Part shown: in pieces, positions 21,726-44,272 of the stretch
Layout of the letters: each line of letters opens with the position of its first letter
Numbering within the stretch: the first letter of the stretch is position 1
Origin: Halobacterium sp. CBA1132
GTDB lineage: Archaea; Halobacteriota; Halobacteria; Halobacteriales; Halobacteriaceae
DNA: 64,000 bases
Reading direction: 5' to 3'
NCBI RefSeq assembly: GCF_001485535.1
Contig: NZ_BCMZ01000003.1
Location: 1 to 64,000 of the forward strand
Notes under the pieces: generated by a model
The model's database searches: none
What the model was told of the DNA's origin: nothing
What the model saw: only the letters and a program-made list of their open reading frames with translations
Translations under genes and position numbers: made by a program

Positions 21726-22211
21726 CTAAATGAACTCTGCTACTCTCCCGCTCTGCGTACTAACATCCGAAAATTCGCCTAATCCAAGCTCCTCAAGTTT
21801 CTCCGAGAGTTCATTAGTCACTCTGATACTTTCTTCTTCATCATCTGCTACGGCGAAGATAACCCTCGGAAAAATGATTATCGTCGCTTCCGACTCCCGA
21901 GGATAGTATATCGCCCCAGAGAACTTCTCCGGGTCGTATTCTATATCGTCTAAGCCAAGACCAATCGCAAGCGCATTCAGGTTTAGACGGTTGTCTGCCG
22001 GGAGAATACTGACGGCTTCCTCTTCAGAAAGCTCCGTTAGTACCGGAGGGAGCGTTAGTCCGTGATTCCACGCCTCAGGGTGGTCCTCAAGGTTGTCCGA
22101 TTTATCCAAATCAAGTGATGTACGTGTCCACCAATCGACGAAAACTGACTTGTCTACCTCGGCGTTTGGGAGTGACCGAACAAAATCAAATGCTGGTTGG
22201 GGATGACCCAT
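21726..22211 (-). CDS. TBP-like protein with only the second TBP repeat
   Basis: The 161-residue protein has an N-terminal domain (about 1-70, WWTRTSLDLDKSDNLEDH) that I do not recognise. It is followed by one clear copy of the C-terminal TBP repeat (about 75-150): NRLNLNALAIGLGLDDIEYD, EKFSGAIYYP, ATIIIFPRVIFAV and SEKLEELGLGE. This lines up with the second half of the TBP at 5883-6443. The DNA-kinking phenylalanines appear kept, while the SGK basic turn is lost. It is transcribed with the ParA locus downstream. It may be a regulator or DNA-binding partner of the partition genes. Confidence 0.75.
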   Translation of the reverse strand: MGHPQPAFDFVRSLPNAEVDKSVFVDWWTRTSLDLDKSDNLEDHPEAWNHGLTLPPVLTELSEEEAVSILPADNRLNLNALAIGLGLDDIEYDPEKFSGAIYYPRESEATIIIFPRVIFAVADDEEESIRVTNELSEKLEELGLGEFSDVSTQSGRVAEFI

Positions 22212-22235
22212 ACAAACGCTGTCTGGCGGATTCCC

Positions 22236-22628
22236 TTAATTCTCCACGTCGTCCGAGTCCAGGCCGCGAGCTTCCAGAATCAGCTCACCAACCCGCTCGG
22301 GATTCTCGATAGCCAGCCGGTACAGCGCATCGTGGATTTCACGCTTCTCGACGTTCTGGACGTCCTGACCGACGAGATACGGCTGTATCTCGGTCGTATC
22401 CGTCCGCTGGAACTCCTCGAGAATATCCTCGCGCGGGTACGTCGAATACGGCTGGACGTCCTCCGTCCCGAACTGTGGCTCCTCCCACGGATTCGACTCT
22501 TCCTCCTCTTCGTCTTCGGTCGCAGCGTCCTTCGACTGCGTCTGGGTCACGTCTTCGGCTGACTCCTGCTCGGCCGTCTCTTCGTCGTCTGCGTCCTCCG
22601 CGCTCTCGCCAAGGTCGAACCCACTCAT
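22236..22628 (-). CDS. Acidic ParA-partner protein (first par locus)
   Basis: The 130-residue protein has a very acidic, disordered first half (Glu/Asp/Ser-rich, about 1-50) and a conserved second half: QPYSTYPREDILEEFQRTDT, EIQPYLVGQDV, REIHDALYRLAIENPERVGE and LILEARGL. It overlaps parA by 4 bp (ATGA). Its counterpart at 43581-44057 shares the layout and the ending LxEYIKEARGI. No ParB helix-turn-helix or CTPase motif is visible, so this is a different kind of centromere or adaptor protein, inferred from position. Confidence 0.75.
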   Translation of the reverse strand: MSGFDLGESAEDADDEETAEQESAEDVTQTQSKDAATEDEEEEESNPWEEPQFGTEDVQPYSTYPREDILEEFQRTDTTEIQPYLVGQDVQNVEKREIHDALYRLAIENPERVGELILEARGLDSDDVEN

Positions 22629-23578
22629 GCCTGAATCCCTCCGTTTTCGACGATATCAGCAAGCGTCTCGAAATGCGCTAACTGGGGGTTCTCCGGGTTG
22701 TACGCTGTGAGCGGCTGGCGTTGTTCGTAGGCGTCTCCGAACTCGCTGGAGTGCCGAATCCCCGGCTTGAGATGGAGGTCGCCGCTGTCGATCTGGTCCC
22801 ACTGCTTGGGCGTGATGCGCGCGAACGACGGGATATGTTCATCGAGGACGTCCGCGACGTCGACGCCGTCGTGGAGCTCGGGCTGGCTGCCCGTCCAGTC
22901 GGCGCGACGGCCGGCTTCGAGGTAGGCGGCGAACGTCGGGTCGGTGTTCATCGACTCAAGCAGCGTCCGGTCTTTCGTCTGCTGGTCAATCCGGCGTTCG
23001 AGGTTGTTCGGGATGGCGGCCAGAATCTCGAAATCGAAGGCTTGGCGAATGTCCATCACGAGCTTCTTCGACGTCTCACGGAGGCCGTTCAACGCCTCTG
23101 GAGCCGGCATAAGCGGGAGAATCGCGTTCGGTGCGCCGACGACGGCGTTGTTCACGAGCTTGTTCCGCGAGCCGGGGACGTCGAAGAGAATGTAGTCGTA
23201 GTCGTCGCCCAGCAGCACGTCGACGAGTTCGTTTTTGAGTTTCATGTCGCTCGCGAAGACGTCGTCGCGGGCGAGGTCGTCGTTGACGCGTTCGAGGTTG
23301 AGCGCGGGGATGAAATCGAAGCCGTAGCCGGGGTGCTTGATGACGTCTTCGGGGTCGGCGTCGTGAAGGAGGACGTCTCCGAGGTCGGTTTTGGATTTGT
23401 CTTCGCGCGTGTAGTAGCCGAGGCCGGTGGAGAGATGGCCGGCGGGGTCGAGGTCCGCAACCAGGACGTCGTGGCCGCGGTTGCCGAGAACGCCGCCGAG
23501 GGTGTTCGCACAGATTGATTTGCCGAAGCCGCCTTTGAGCATGGCGAACGAGACCGCGCGTGGTGTTGGGCCGCTCAT
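22625..23578 (-). CDS. parA: ParA/Soj-type partition ATPase
   Basis: The 317-residue protein has a deviant Walker A (LKGGFGKSICANTLG, about 14-28), the switch VADLDPAGHLSTGLG and Walker B YDYILFDVPGSRNK. The tail is typical of haloarchaeal ParA. ParA proteins ride on nucleoid DNA and move plasmids or complexes. Its partner is the acidic protein that follows; AT-rich palindromes lie just upstream (23585-23710) where promoter and centromere are expected. A related gene with 9-bp repeats lies at 42686-43588. Confidence 0.92.
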   Translation of the reverse strand: MSGPTPRAVSFAMLKGGFGKSICANTLGGVLGNRGHDVLVADLDPAGHLSTGLGYYTREDKSKTDLGDVLLHDADPEDVIKHPGYGFDFIPALNLERVNDDLARDDVFASDMKLKNELVDVLLGDDYDYILFDVPGSRNKLVNNAVVGAPNAILPLMPAPEALNGLRETSKKLVMDIRQAFDFEILAAIPNNLERRIDQQTKDRTLLESMNTDPTFAAYLEAGRRADWTGSQPELHDGVDVADVLDEHIPSFARITPKQWDQIDSGDLHLKPGIRHSSEFGDAYEQRQPLTAYNPENPQLAHFETLADIVENGGIQA

Positions 23579-23584
23579 CGTAGT

Positions 23585-23710
23585 AATTTCTATAAATCAC
23601 GCCATCCTAAAACTTTGCTCGAATTCCACAAACTACGCAATTTCTATAATTTATAGGAATTATATGTGTAGGGTAACTAATCCAAATAATCTCTATAAAT
23701 TATAGAAATT
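23585..23710. repeat. AT-rich palindromic repeats upstream of parA, candidate centromere/operator
   Basis: Two 23-bp imperfect palindromes lie at 23639-23661 and 23688-23710, each with core CTATAAWTTATAG flanked by AATTT/AAATT-like arms. A half copy starts at 23585, right at the parA start. Starts are 54 and 49 bp apart. A further perfect palindrome (TGTGTAA, one base, TTACACA) is at 23728-23742. Repeats in this place commonly bind the partition adaptor and repress the operon. Confidence 0.65.
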
Positions 23711-23794
23711 TAGAGAGTTAGGTAATGTGTGTAAGTTACACAGTTTACGCGATGTTTGGGAATTGTGTACTGTGTGGAGGTCGCCTGCAGTATG

Positions 23795-23992
23795 ATTGCC
23801 GAATACTTTTACCGACCTAACGGTAAGAGGGGAATGCGAGAGGGCTGGTGAGTGTCGCTTTGTGCCACCACTGGGACACACCAGCTCCCTCGCTTCCTCA
23901 CACGCTGAGCGGCTGCTGTGGCGTCCGTAGTGGTGTCGCACGTAGCAACAACCAACATCTCTCCGGGACTGGTCGATGGGAACACTACGGGC
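23795..23992 (+). repeat. Repeat shared by both par loci, with an identical 82-nt core
   Basis: This segment is homologous to 44076-44272. Both begin GCCGAATACTTTTAC, diverge in the middle, and are identical at all 82 positions from 23911 to 23992 (44191-44272). The core can fold back: CCGTAGTG at 23925-23932 pairs exactly with CACTACGG at 23983-23990. Frames through it are not conserved between the copies, so it may be an RNA, a DNA site or a recombination tract. Confidence 0.65.
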
Positions 23993-39046: not shown

Positions 39047-40488
39047 TAGAATACCCCCTTCTTCTCGAATTCCTTCGTCTGATTATAAATCCCGCGTGCA
39101 GTCATCACGGCCTGCACTTCCGACCAGTCCGTAGTCTGGACGCGAATCGTGTTCTCCCCAGCCGTAAACGCCCCCGCCGGCAGATTCACCGTCGCGTTCC
39201 CATACAAGCGTCCATTCCGGAGCTGTGAATCCGGAACCTCAACCGTCTGAGAGTCACCATCCGCGTTCGTAATCGTAACCGATGGCTGGTTGGTCACGAC
39301 GCGGCTGCCGTTGTACGTCGCGATAACTGAGACGTCGGGCTGAATACCGTCGACGGTTGGTGCTTGCACTCGCATCTCGTTCTGTCCGAGCGTCAGGGCG
39401 CTCGAATTCACGTCAACAGGCGCCGTCAACACACCACTCTCGTCAAACGCGCTCGGATACGCGTACTCCTCGCCATTCACGCTGACAGTGGCGGATTCCG
39501 CGGCCACTCGAATCGGGTACGCGACCTCGTATCCGATGCCGCCGCCAGCACTCTGTATTTCGAGTGTCGTCGCCGGCGACAGTGGCTCCTCGATAGCGAC
39601 CGTTGTCGCGTTCGCGAGCCGTCCGTTGTCCTCGTAGAGCGTCCGTCCATCCTCGGTCTGGATAGTCGGGGATTCAGTCACAGTCCGGGATTGCCACTCT
39701 AGGGTGGCGTCGAAGCGCGTCATCCGTTGGTCGCCGGCAACCGTGACCGTCGTCTCACCCGGCGGCACCTCCCCCGCTGGAATTGTCATCGTTCGCGTCC
39801 CTGTGAAGCCTCCAGCAAGGCTCGCAACCTCCTGACTGTTCTTCGTGATGGTGAGGAAGCCTTGTTCGCCGCGCTGTTGTTCGACAATCTTGGCGGCCTC
39901 CTTGTCCTTCGAAGAACTGTCGCGCTCCTCGAGTTCCCGAATACCGAGCCAGAAGAGGGGGTCCTTGAACCCCGTGACCGAACCACTCCGAAGGTCGGTG
40001 GCGACGTCTCCGACTGATTCGCCGTTCGGGCCGTTCTCCGTCCAGTCCTTCGGCGCCGGCTTGAAGATGACTTGGACGACAGCGAGTGAGTCGTCGAGGG
40101 TGAGCATTTCACCCATAATATCGCTGTACGGGTCGCCGTGTTGGAAGCCCTCGGCGTTGTGGTGGCGAATCGGGAGGAAGGTGTGGCGTTCTTCGGAGAG
40201 TCGGGCGGCGGCGACGTGGTCGGATGGGCGAAGTTCGGGGAACGCTACTCCGGTGGTTCGGGGTGTGACTTCGGAGTTGGTGTAGGTGTTGGTGGTGCGG
40301 CGTTGGAAGCGATCACTGGCGCGTTCGTTGGCGGCGTAGAGCCGAAACCGGAATTCGCCGCGGTCGAACCAGATTTCGAAGGCGTGGGCGGGGCTGGCGT
40401 TCTTGCCGTCGCGGATGCGGACGTCGTGGAGGGCTTGGAGGAGGTTGGCGCCCGCGTCGATGCCGTCGTTGTCTTGGTAGGGGTGCGG
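39046..40488 (-). pseudogene. Chimeric frame: conjugation-ATPase-like start fused to a surface-domain end
   Basis: The frame is open from the tnpB junction near 40488. Residues 1 to about 195 (HPYQDNDGIDAGANLLQALH, EIWFDRGEFRFRLYAANERA, LPIRHHNAEGFQHGDPYSDI, GFKDPLFWLGIRELEERDSS) look like the N-terminal part of haloarchaeal plasmid transfer ATPases. After EQGFLTI the text becomes a secreted-type beta-domain protein (FTGTRTMTIPAGEVPPGETT, VNLPAGAFTAGENTIRVQTT). The switch is abrupt, with no ATP-binding motifs. I read it as a deletion that fused two genes, then cut at the 5' end by a TnpB element. The first ATG inside is at 40116. Confidence 0.6.
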
Positions 40489-40489
40489 A

Positions 40490-41363
40490 TGTCGGAGAGG
40501 TCGCCCACTACAATCGTCCCAACTCCTTCGTCAACACACCGTTGGACGATGTGTTTGGAGAGCGTGTGGAAGTAGTGGGTACGCCGACGAGATTTCTTCT
40601 GGTTCAATCGCGTGGCCTGCTCGGAGTCCGAGTCGTCACAGCGAGCGATACGCTTGCTGAAGTAGTAGTCGTCCTCCTTCAGACAGTTGAGCGGGTACAG
40701 TTCGCTGTGGCCGTCTTCGTAGGCGAGTGCGGCGAAGTTGTTGATACCGAGGTCAACACCCATCGTTTTCTCACCGGGGGCTTCATCCACGTCGATTTCG
40801 ACTTTGCAGACGAAGTGTAGTTCCCACTCGTTACCCGTCCAGACTGCTCGAACTTGTTGGACGTTCTCCACGGTGGAGAGCTCAACGTCGGGGCGTGTCT
40901 GGTACTCGCAGAGGATGAAGTCCGACCAGTAGTCTTTGAGGTTCGACCCTTTCGAGAGTCGGACTCGCTCGTACTGGGTGTCGAGTTTGAACCCAGCGGC
41001 TTTGAACGTGACCGTGCTTCGTGGGTGTTCGTCGCCGTGTTTGCGGTACTTCGGCGGGTTCGCTCGTGTGTCTCCGTTTTGTCGTTTGCCGTACCAGCCG
41101 TTGAACGCCTCAGCGAGTTCTTGAAGGACTCGCTGACTTGACTGAGAATGCAGGTCATCGTAGCGTTCGTGGCTCTTGAGGTACGATGTGAGTTCGTTGT
41201 GATCGGGAATGTGACCGACTTCTGACCACACGCGGTCACAGACCCACCGTCCGACGTTCCAGAGTTTACTGGCAGCGAACCCGAGCGAATCAAGGTCGTC
41301 CTGCACCCGTGACTGGTTCCGAATGGACGCAGTATAGGTGCGAGTGACAACCTCTTTCGCCAT
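40490..41363 (-). pseudogene. tnpB: TnpB nuclease gene, 3'-truncated
   Basis: From the ATG at 41363 the protein has the N-terminal TnpB core (RTYTASIRNQSRVQDDLDSL, LWNVGRWVCDRVW, AFNGWYGKRQNGDTRANPPK). It also has the RuvC start (GVDLGINNFAALAYEDG) and the stretch IVQRCVDEGVGTIVVGDLSD. There the match ends near 40490 and foreign sequence follows. The zinc ribbon and the last catalytic Asp are missing, so it cannot cut. The partner gene is the chimeric frame at 39046-40488. Confidence 0.8.
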
Positions 41364-42159: not shown

Positions 42160-42400
42160 TCGCTCGGTGTCGGGATGACCCTTCCTACAGGTCGCGATTC
42201 AGTCCGAGAAACGCGTCCGAGTTCGTGCCGAACAAAACCAAATGCTGATTGGGGATAGCCCATACAAACGCTGTCTGTCGGATTCCCTTAATTCTCCTCG
42301 TCGTTAGGGTCCAGGCCGCGGGCTTCCAGAATCAGCTCACCAACCCGTTCGGGATTCTCGACAGCCAGCCGGTACAGCGATCATGGATTTCACGCTTCTC
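42160..42400 (-). pseudogene. Duplicated remnant of the half-TBP/ParA-partner region
   Basis: This DNA matches the region 21660-22350: the segment with CAGGTCGCGATTCAG, then AAATGCTG and CCCATACAAACGCTGTCTG, then the end of the ParA-partner gene (minus strand, about 42292-42400). The half-TBP coding region in between is deleted here. It shows that this plasmid module existed twice. Confidence 0.7.
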
Positions 42401-42504
42401 AACCCGGTTCGATTAGGCGGCTCTCGACCGCCGCTCTTGTACCCTGGATTTCTTTTCCACCCCTCCATCTCCTCTATCTATCTTATCTTTCTCAAAGTAG
42501 TCAT

Positions 42505-42636
42505 CTACTCTACCTACTGTTTCTACTTTGCAGTAGATAGCTACTGTACTGTTGCCATTGGAATCTCTCTACTCTAACTACTCCTTCTGTTTCGGTTACT
42601 CTGACTACTCCATCTACTGCATCTACTTTGACTACT
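42505..42636. repeat. CTACT repeat array in 9-bp steps, candidate centromere
   Basis: The pentamer CTACT starts at 42505, 42514, 42523, 42541, 42569, 42578, 42605, 42614, 42623 and 42632 (a TTACT at 42596 fits). All differences within 42505-42541 and within 42569-42632 are multiples of 9; between the two blocks the phase slips by one base. At 42532 the step is filled by AGTAG, the inverse. It ends about 50 bp before the parA start. This looks like an iteron or centromere for a DNA-binding partner. Confidence 0.75.
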
Positions 42637-42685
42637 TTGGAAAAGCTAAAGGAGGTGTGTGGCAGCCTCTCAGGTGGCAACCAAT

Positions 42686-43588
42686 ATGGCACAACGCGAT
42701 ACCGACAAAACCCCGCGCGCAGTCTGCGTCGGCATCCTGAAAGGCGGCTTCGGGAAAACCACCACCGCGCTCAACCTCGCTCGCGAGCTCGCGCACCGCA
42801 ACGAACGCGCCCTCCTTGTCGACCTCGACGACAACGGCCACCTCACCCTCAACCTCGGCCATCGCGAAGCCTACCAAAGCGGCTCCGGGGACGGGGACGA
42901 AAACCACGCCGAAGCGGTCCTCGTCGATGAAGCCGACCCTCGCGACTATGTTGTCGACGTTGCTGGCGGCCTCGACCTCTTCCCCTCGCACGCACAACTC
43001 GAAGAGGTTGAATCAACGCTGAAGAGCGCCGTGCAGGGGTCTGCTCGTCTGAAACAGCATCTTGTCGAACCGCTGCTGGGTGATGAGTACGACTACATCG
43101 TGGTGGACTGTCCGGCGAATCGCGGGAAGCTCAACGACAACGCGATGTACGCGACCGGGAATCTCATCATCCCGCTACGGCCGGAACTCGGGTATGAGAC
43201 TGGCCTTGACAACACCGTCAACCGGCTCGTGAAGCCGGCGCGGCGGTACTTCGACCTCGATATCCTCGCGGTCGTGCCGTCCGACCTGCAGCGGCGTATC
43301 GACCAAGCCACGCTCGACCAAGAACTCCTCCGTGAAATCACGACACGGGAGGGTGTAGCGTCGAAAGTCCCGAGCTTCGCGTACATCTCCGAGGCCGACT
43401 GGGACGCTATCGCGAACGGTGAGTACGATGGTGGCCTGCCGGGGATTCGGCATCGTGACGCGATCAACAACTCGCTGCGGGACGCGAACGAGCCGCTGCG
43501 GGACTACGACCCCGACTGCGACCAACTGGAAGCGTACGATGAACTTGCTCGCATCGTCGAACGCGGTGAGGTGATTCGCGATGAGTGA
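42686..43588 (+). CDS. parA: ParA/Soj-type partition ATPase (second locus)
   Basis: The 300-residue protein has deviant Walker A (LKGGFGKTTTALNLAREL), LLVDLDDNGHLTLNLG and Walker B YDYIVVDCPANRGK. Its LxxRIDQATLDQELL region aligns with the first ParA (RRIDQQTKDRTLLES). I choose the ATG at 42686; GTG codons at 42659 and 42674 are in frame too. A strong ribosome site AAAGGAGGTG at 42648-42657 would fit the 42674 GTG better, so the true start is uncertain. The acidic partner gene overlaps its end by 8 bp. Confidence 0.9.
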   Translation: MAQRDTDKTPRAVCVGILKGGFGKTTTALNLARELAHRNERALLVDLDDNGHLTLNLGHREAYQSGSGDGDENHAEAVLVDEADPRDYVVDVAGGLDLFPSHAQLEEVESTLKSAVQGSARLKQHLVEPLLGDEYDYIVVDCPANRGKLNDNAMYATGNLIIPLRPELGYETGLDNTVNRLVKPARRYFDLDILAVVPSDLQRRIDQATLDQELLREITTREGVASKVPSFAYISEADWDAIANGEYDGGLPGIRHRDAINNSLRDANEPLRDYDPDCDQLEAYDELARIVERGEVIRDE

Positions 43589-44057
43589 CGAATCGAACCC
43601 GTTTGACGACCTCAACGAGAGTATCGAGGACCAGGACGCCGACGACTCTGCGGACAACGAATCAACGGCGGCGACATCCACGGCGTCGACATCGACGGCA
43701 GCGACCGACGACTCTAGTGATGATGGAACTGATGAACCGATGACGACGGGCGAACAGCTACCAGAAGATGGGAAGACGGCGGACCCGTATCTGACGAAAG
43801 CGTTCGAGTTCGGGGACGAGGCGACCCAGTTCCCGTTCTACGTCCGCGAGGACACGCTTGACGCGTGGGAGGTCGTCGACGACGTGGAGGTGACGCCCGC
43901 GCTCGTGCAGGACGGCGTGAAGGACGTCACGACCTCCGAGAAACACGATGCGATGCTGCAGATGGTGCTGGACCGGCCGGACTTGCTCGTGGAGTACATC
44001 AAGGAGGCACGCGGGATTCCGGACGCAGACACGAGCGACTTCCGCGACGAATCGTAG
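43581..44057 (+). CDS. Acidic ParA-partner protein (second par locus)
   Basis: The 158-residue protein has an acidic, Ser/Thr/Ala-rich disordered arm (about 1-60) and a conserved end: FPFYVREDTLDAWEVVDDVE, TPALVQDGVKDV, EKHDAMLQMVLDRPDLLVEY and IKEARGIPDADTSD. It matches the partner at 22236-22628 in layout and ending. It overlaps parA by 8 bases. It should be the DNA-binding or adaptor component acting on the 9-bp array upstream, by analogy with other partition loci. Confidence 0.75.
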   Translation: MSDESNPFDDLNESIEDQDADDSADNESTAATSTASTSTAATDDSSDDGTDEPMTTGEQLPEDGKTADPYLTKAFEFGDEATQFPFYVREDTLDAWEVVDDVEVTPALVQDGVKDVTTSEKHDAMLQMVLDRPDLLVEYIKEARGIPDADTSDFRDES

Positions 44058-44075
44058 GCGTCTCCGGAAGCCAGT

Positions 44076-44272
44076 TGCCGAATACTTTTACCCGACCGTC
44101 TGCAAGTGGGAGTGCGAGCGAGCTGGTGAGTGTCGCTTTGTGCCATAAATGGGATGCACACCCGCTCTCTCGCTTTCCTAAACGCTGAGTGGCTGCTGTG
44201 GCGTCCGTAGTGGTGTCGCACGTAGCAACAACCAACATCTCTCCGGGACTGGTCGATGGGAACACTACGGGC
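44076..44272 (+). repeat. Second copy of the par-associated repeat
   Basis: Homologous to 23795-23992; the last 82 nt (44191-44272) are identical. The stem halves are at 44205-44212 and 44263-44270. Here it lies after the partner gene, in the same orientation on the plus strand although the par genes are reversed. Confidence 0.65.

Follow-up and report, generated by a model that had tools for sequence, protein, structure and literature searches.

The δ/ω/parS (delta/omega/parS) system of plasmid pSM19035, a type Ib ParABS system of the Firmicutes, pairs a small ParA with a small partner, omega, whose dimers coat 7-bp repeats with one dimer on each repeat (PMC9499535). Full ParA activation there takes at least four contiguous repeats (PMC9499535). 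In the Sulfolobales, SegAB consists of a ParA relative and a downstream site-specific DNA-binding partner, with sites upstream of segA (PMC5120986, PMC12284271). SegB binds 13-bp palindromes, TCTAGASTCTAGA, at sites dispersed along the chromosome (PMC12284271). A third system, from the archaeal Sulfolobus plasmid pNOB8, is AspA-ParB-ParA, in which ParA is accompanied by a centromere-binding protein of the system's own; its three proteins include the adaptor ParB (PMC9178275). For the haloarchaeal plasmids pNRC100 and pNRC200, the available part of the published account calls the soj/ParA genes ParA-like partition genes only, with the centromere unmentioned there (PMC7439475). How a chromosome and several megaplasmids are segregated at once in halophilic archaea is an outstanding question (PMC5120986).

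The window analyzed here, meaning the whole 64,000-nucleotide stretch of a Halobacterium sp. CBA1132 contig, contains a repeat array followed by a parA gene of the same family as those of pNRC100 and pNRC200 and by a gene encoding a small acidic protein. From sequence comparison, we consider it likely that this array acts in cis as the centromere of a partition cassette of the ParA type, with the acidic partner as its reader. Its position right next to the parA start makes it probable that the array serves the parA-partner operon as operator too. The elements of the locus are as follows.

42496 to 42545, plus strand: array block 1, six contiguous 9-bp slots reading AGTAG (inverted), CTACT, CTACT, CTACT (all forward), AGTAG (inverted) and CTACT (forward).
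42532 to 42536, minus strand: inverted AGTAG copy whose direct neighbors share its exact register.
42569 to 42636, plus strand: array block 2, eight 9-bp slots starting at 42569, 42578, 42587, 42596, 42605, 42614, 42623 and 42632.
42659 to 43588, plus strand: ParA ATPase gene, 309 aa from a GTG start (ATG at 42686 is an alternative start).
43581 to 44057, plus strand: acidic partner, the proposed centromere-binding protein, 158 aa.

The ParA protein matches Pfam AAA_31 (E=1.4e-29) with the domain beginning at residue 21, and it has no N-terminal HTH domain. Its gene overlaps that of the partner by 8 bp, and at related loci the partner lies at -50 to +0 bp relative to the stop of parA. An HTH-less ParA, a small downstream partner gene and a repeat array upstream of parA give the locus the organization of a type Ib-like ParABS system. 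It resembles pSM19035 in its small ParA and small partner and in its short, contiguous, non-palindromic repeats, which are located at promoters in direct and inverted copies that keep one register. Moreover, block 1 offers six contiguous slots where at least four are needed in pSM19035. In contrast, the unit is 9 bp with a CTACT core rather than the 7-bp WATCACW, and the partner, which is acidic and has a long linker, lacks a Pfam match and is not an omega homologue. The locus differs from SegAB in having a tandem 9-bp array in a single place in the genome, and from pNOB8 in having two genes.

A preliminary description of this DNA had reported ten copies of CTACT in two phased blocks, with eight or more in 9-bp steps. 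Listing of the positions (42505, 42514, 42523, 42541, 42569, 42578, 42605, 42614, 42623 and 42632) confirmed this, since nine of the ten copies have a neighbor at exactly 9 bp and two registers take in all ten. Each block keeps the 9-bp step, but the offset between the blocks is 28 bp (3x9+1) and the two are therefore out of phase by 1 bp, a slip that corrects the earlier account. That account also lacked the AGTAG sites at 42496 and 42532, a pair of copies in inverted orientation that keep the exact register of block 1. In block 2 all slots are forward, and the gaps are filled by a one-mismatch copy, TTACT at 42596, and by a degenerate slot at 42587. The whole array thus extends over 42496-42636 with about 6 + 8 slots. 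Tandem Repeats Finder returned a period of 9/27 for block 2. Within the window the string CTACTN4CTACT has six matches versus 0.03 expected, and six or more were obtained in none of 100 shuffles; the exact triple CTACTN4CTACTN4CTACT has no second site in the 3.01-Mb genome. When the proposed autocorrelation check was run, lag 9 came out on top for both the segment and the upstream region (0.54 versus a shuffle maximum of 0.42).

The inverted copies at 42532 and 42496 place a pseudo-dyad on the central A.T pair of the unit, and the inverted pair CAGTAGATrGCTACTG is also present in the orthologous loci of pNRC200 (L298) and, with one change, L002. The same relationship holds at the related loci described below. 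Exact CTAYT copies on the same strand form 272, 262, 200 and 136 pairs at 9, 18, 27 and 36 bp, respectively, with other distances mostly below 10, and copies on opposite strands are spaced 9n bp from center to center (119 pairs at 9 bp and 67 at 27 bp). Flipping thus keeps the unit in register, which argues for a reader whose axis of two-fold symmetry passes through the central A.T pair. These spacings suggest that every 9 bp takes up one dimer with two-fold symmetry. Note that in the CCTATTG (QKP) family, upstream of parA at loci L224, L207 and L189, opposite-strand copies are also found at 4-5 mod 9; by eye this register appears to reflect a pair of blocks that face each other, with a break in phase between them.

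As a refutation test of the centromere proposal, homologous parA loci were searched for the array. Relatives were gathered by protein only, which gave 154 non-identical upstream regions from haloarchaeal parA-partner loci, and 9-bp-phased arrays were found at nearly all of them, with a core specific to the family. The mean best-window match over the 154 loci was 0.504, 0.489 and 0.457 at lags 9, 18 and 27, with other lags giving 0.316-0.359, and the top lag was 9, 18 or 27 in 146 of the 154 regions. Only period 3 was seen in the controls, which were ParA coding sequences and the regions upstream of 30 other P-loop ATPase genes; the latter had no lag-9 excess. A de novo motif search in which no period was imposed found neighboring sites 9, 18 and 27 bp apart 519, 218 and 70 times versus 54, 22 and 27 times in coding controls. 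Lag autocorrelation alone was dropped as a genome-wide detector because coding regions score similarly, and exact-motif and homology-anchored tests were used in its place. Median values for 118 loci with CTAYY-type arrays are 12 sites and a length of about 200 bp. Periodicity is weak or absent at a minority of loci, such as L247, L165 and L249. H. salinarum pNRC200 carries an orthologous CTACT array, its parA matching that of the window at 87.8%, and the parA of pNRC100 has a CTATTC array. Across families the core varies while the step is constant, and the cores and the corresponding stretches of the partner protein are given below.

CTACT: partner strand TQFPFYVR
CTATTC: partner strand QRPFYAR
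CCTATTG: partner strand Q[RK]P[FL]YAR
AGGTAGCTA: partner strand VQAQIYPR
ATTCGTACG: partner strand LRRSIYAR

In the CTATTC family the array continues in frame into parA, where it encodes NS-repeat leader peptides within the first 35 parA codons (L131, L141, L145 and about 36 other loci of this family). Where the array enters parA the Asn codons are AAT at 157:24, versus 141:292 in the remaining parA sequence. This reversal of codon preference in the array-overlapped part of the gene indicates that selection acts on the DNA.

The partner gave no significant match to a Pfam, NCBIfam or PHROGs family, and 25 partner sequences likewise had no Pfam family. Its family is present in 201 of the 391 genomes of the class (56 of 86 genera); the 295 genomes of the phylum beyond the class gave a single weak partial match, and no relatives were found on the viral contigs searched. 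The protein has an N-terminal FDDL motif, a low-complexity acidic linker and a conserved C-terminal domain, and we propose that the N-terminal tail contacts ParA. These parts are encoded as follows.

43599 to 43616, plus strand: conserved N-terminal PFDDLx motif, with F8, D10 and L11 near-invariant in the alignment.
43779 to 44054, plus strand: C-terminal domain, residues 67-158 (AlphaFold2, mean pLDDT 87).
43821 to 43847, plus strand: proposed DNA-reading strand A81-T-Q83-F-P85-F-Y87-V-R89, picked out by its covariation with the array core.

AlphaFold2 predicts an extended strand followed by helices at residues 90-110, 118-131 and 133-144, and a second family member has the same predicted layout (pLDDT 89). 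This strand-helix-helix-helix order resembles RHH plus an extra helix, and on the model an RHH relationship is kept as a possibility. However, hhalign against 32 haloarchaeal RHH_1 domains gave a probability below 1%. Foldseek searches of PDB and BFVD returned no significant known fold. RHH membership is thus unsupported by profile or structure search, and the DNA-binding fold of the partner is putative.

The preliminary description had named the acidic ParA partner as the protein that binds the array, and covariation between protein and DNA backs this assignment. When each alignment column was used to predict core similarity, column 12 (Q83) was the best partner column in all 18 analysis settings, and it ranked first among the 297-331 columns of ParA and partner combined at three redundancy levels. 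Column 14 (P85) ranked 2, 12 and 9 at these levels. In an initial analysis of 71 columns, columns 12, 14 and 10 had ranked 1, 2 and 4, and the signal of column 10 was lost once ParA was included. Phased CTAYY sites are present at 100 of the 133 loci with Gln at column 12 and at none of the 13 loci with another residue. In these alignments the core and one stretch of the partner appear to co-vary. Gln makes up 91% of column 12, leaving a few lineages to carry its signal, the loci are not independent of each other and the fingerprint used for the motifs is a crude one; the covariation is therefore strong support for the partner as reader, short of proof. A comparison of cores between co-resident par loci had only 7 usable pairs.

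The same data bear on the alternative that not the partner but ParA, or else a host protein, is the reader of the array. With close relatives kept, ParA identity also correlates with the core and is a slightly better predictor than partner identity (0.60 versus 0.53). This effect was mostly gone once redundant loci were removed, the coefficients falling to 0.14 and 0.06 for ParA versus 0.50 and 0.41 for the partner, and the top covarying column is located in the partner strand. A shared host factor, for its part, would not yield different cores at the par loci of one genome. We therefore regard a reader other than the partner as very unlikely. The array could also be read as part of a plasmid origin, either as replication iterons or as recognition boxes for Orc1; iterons are likewise short phased repeats, and an orc1 gene is found upstream of the pNRC200 array. 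However, an Orc1/Cdc6 relative was present within 3 kb at just 5 of the 35 loci tested, whereas the periodicity accompanies pairs of parA and partner genes, and covariation links the core to the partner. As an initiator gene does not regularly accompany the array, this hardly credible assignment was rejected.

That the array is an operator only, through which the partner or ParA represses its own operon while the real centromere is elsewhere, would agree with its position immediately before parA and with its extension across the start codon in one large family, where a repressor would act. Yet about a dozen sites over a median of about 200 bp far exceed what simple repression needs, and the pSM19035 repeats double as centromere and promoter sites (PMC9499535), so a purely regulatory role seems unlikely. 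Block 2, a simple CT-rich tandem, could also be taken for a neutral low-complexity pyrimidine tract expanded by slippage. The inverted copies in register, the constant period with a changing core across genera and the codon reversal in parA all speak against slippage, which the comparative data largely refute and to which we give practically no credence.

The preferred reading, a centromere read by the acidic partner, leads us to infer binding, a dimer, a helical filament, autoregulation and segregation. Each 9-bp unit would be the docking site for one two-fold symmetric partner dimer, with the strand Q83-F-P85-F-Y87-V-R89 reading a core of about 5 bp, and such a dimer could occupy the unit in either orientation owing to its symmetry. 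On 10.5-bp DNA a 9-bp step would miss a complete turn by about 51 degrees, and adjacent dimers would wind slowly left-handed round the DNA. The clustered N-terminal tails, with their FDDL motif and acidic linker, would be offered to nucleoid-bound ParA, so that array and partner together would form the segrosome. The array-bound partner would probably also repress the parA-partner operon. Since core and strand residues seem to change together between lineages while the step is fixed, each replicon could have its own address. A tentative extension, to which we assign a rather low probability, is that haloarchaeal replicons share one cassette, including a copy on the Halobacterium main chromosome, in which the 9-bp unit is fixed and the core is re-addressed by strand positions 81, 83 and 85 of a non-RHH domain. 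If true, this would be a readable protein-DNA code for plasmid identity.

The locus provides a specific candidate centromere for many haloarchaeal replicons and a candidate centromere-binding protein with named residues, in a setting where H. salinarum (pNRC100 and pNRC200) is a tractable host. The constant step and changing core are a natural experiment on the co-evolution of a DNA-binding strand and its site. Such arrays are nowhere described in the literature searched, and as most subscription journals were outside that search their novelty is provisional.

The window contains another par locus, and a remnant of it lies beside the CTACT array.

22236 to 23578, minus strand: par locus 1, parA at 23578-22625 and partner at 22628-22236.
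42228 to 42403, minus strand: remnant of the 3' end of the par locus 1 partner gene plus its downstream flank, 91.5% identical to 22176-22352.

The CTACT array had been described as unlike the AT palindromes of par locus 1, a contrast that stands in part. The sequence upstream of par locus 1 (about 23581-23760) is indeed different, being AT-rich and palindromic, of the CTATAAATTATAG type, and the de novo motif finder gave no phased sites there. However, lag 9 is the top period in that region too, and the partner of par locus 1 and the acidic partner of the CTACT locus are members of one family. The remnant is an antisense stump located just upstream of the CTACT array. The two loci have common flanks (42228-42403 versus 22176-22352, and 44075-44272 versus 23796-23992 with 88.5% identity) that are in the same orientation at both, whereas the enclosed par genes are opposite in direction. 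The simplest reading of these sequences is that a region was duplicated and one par cassette was then replaced by another.

The family of these two loci is represented by a third par cassette on the main chromosome, a 2.59 Mb contig (G000:C1:1302577-1302801; L111, L250). Among the ORFs up to 20 kb from it, none stood out as an origin gene, and close relatives of this cassette are present in other genomes of the genus. The minus-strand ORF at 40245-41363 of the window, read by eye, resembles a transposon nuclease of the TnpB type; its C-terminal end is odd and of low complexity, and the ORF is perhaps frameshifted.
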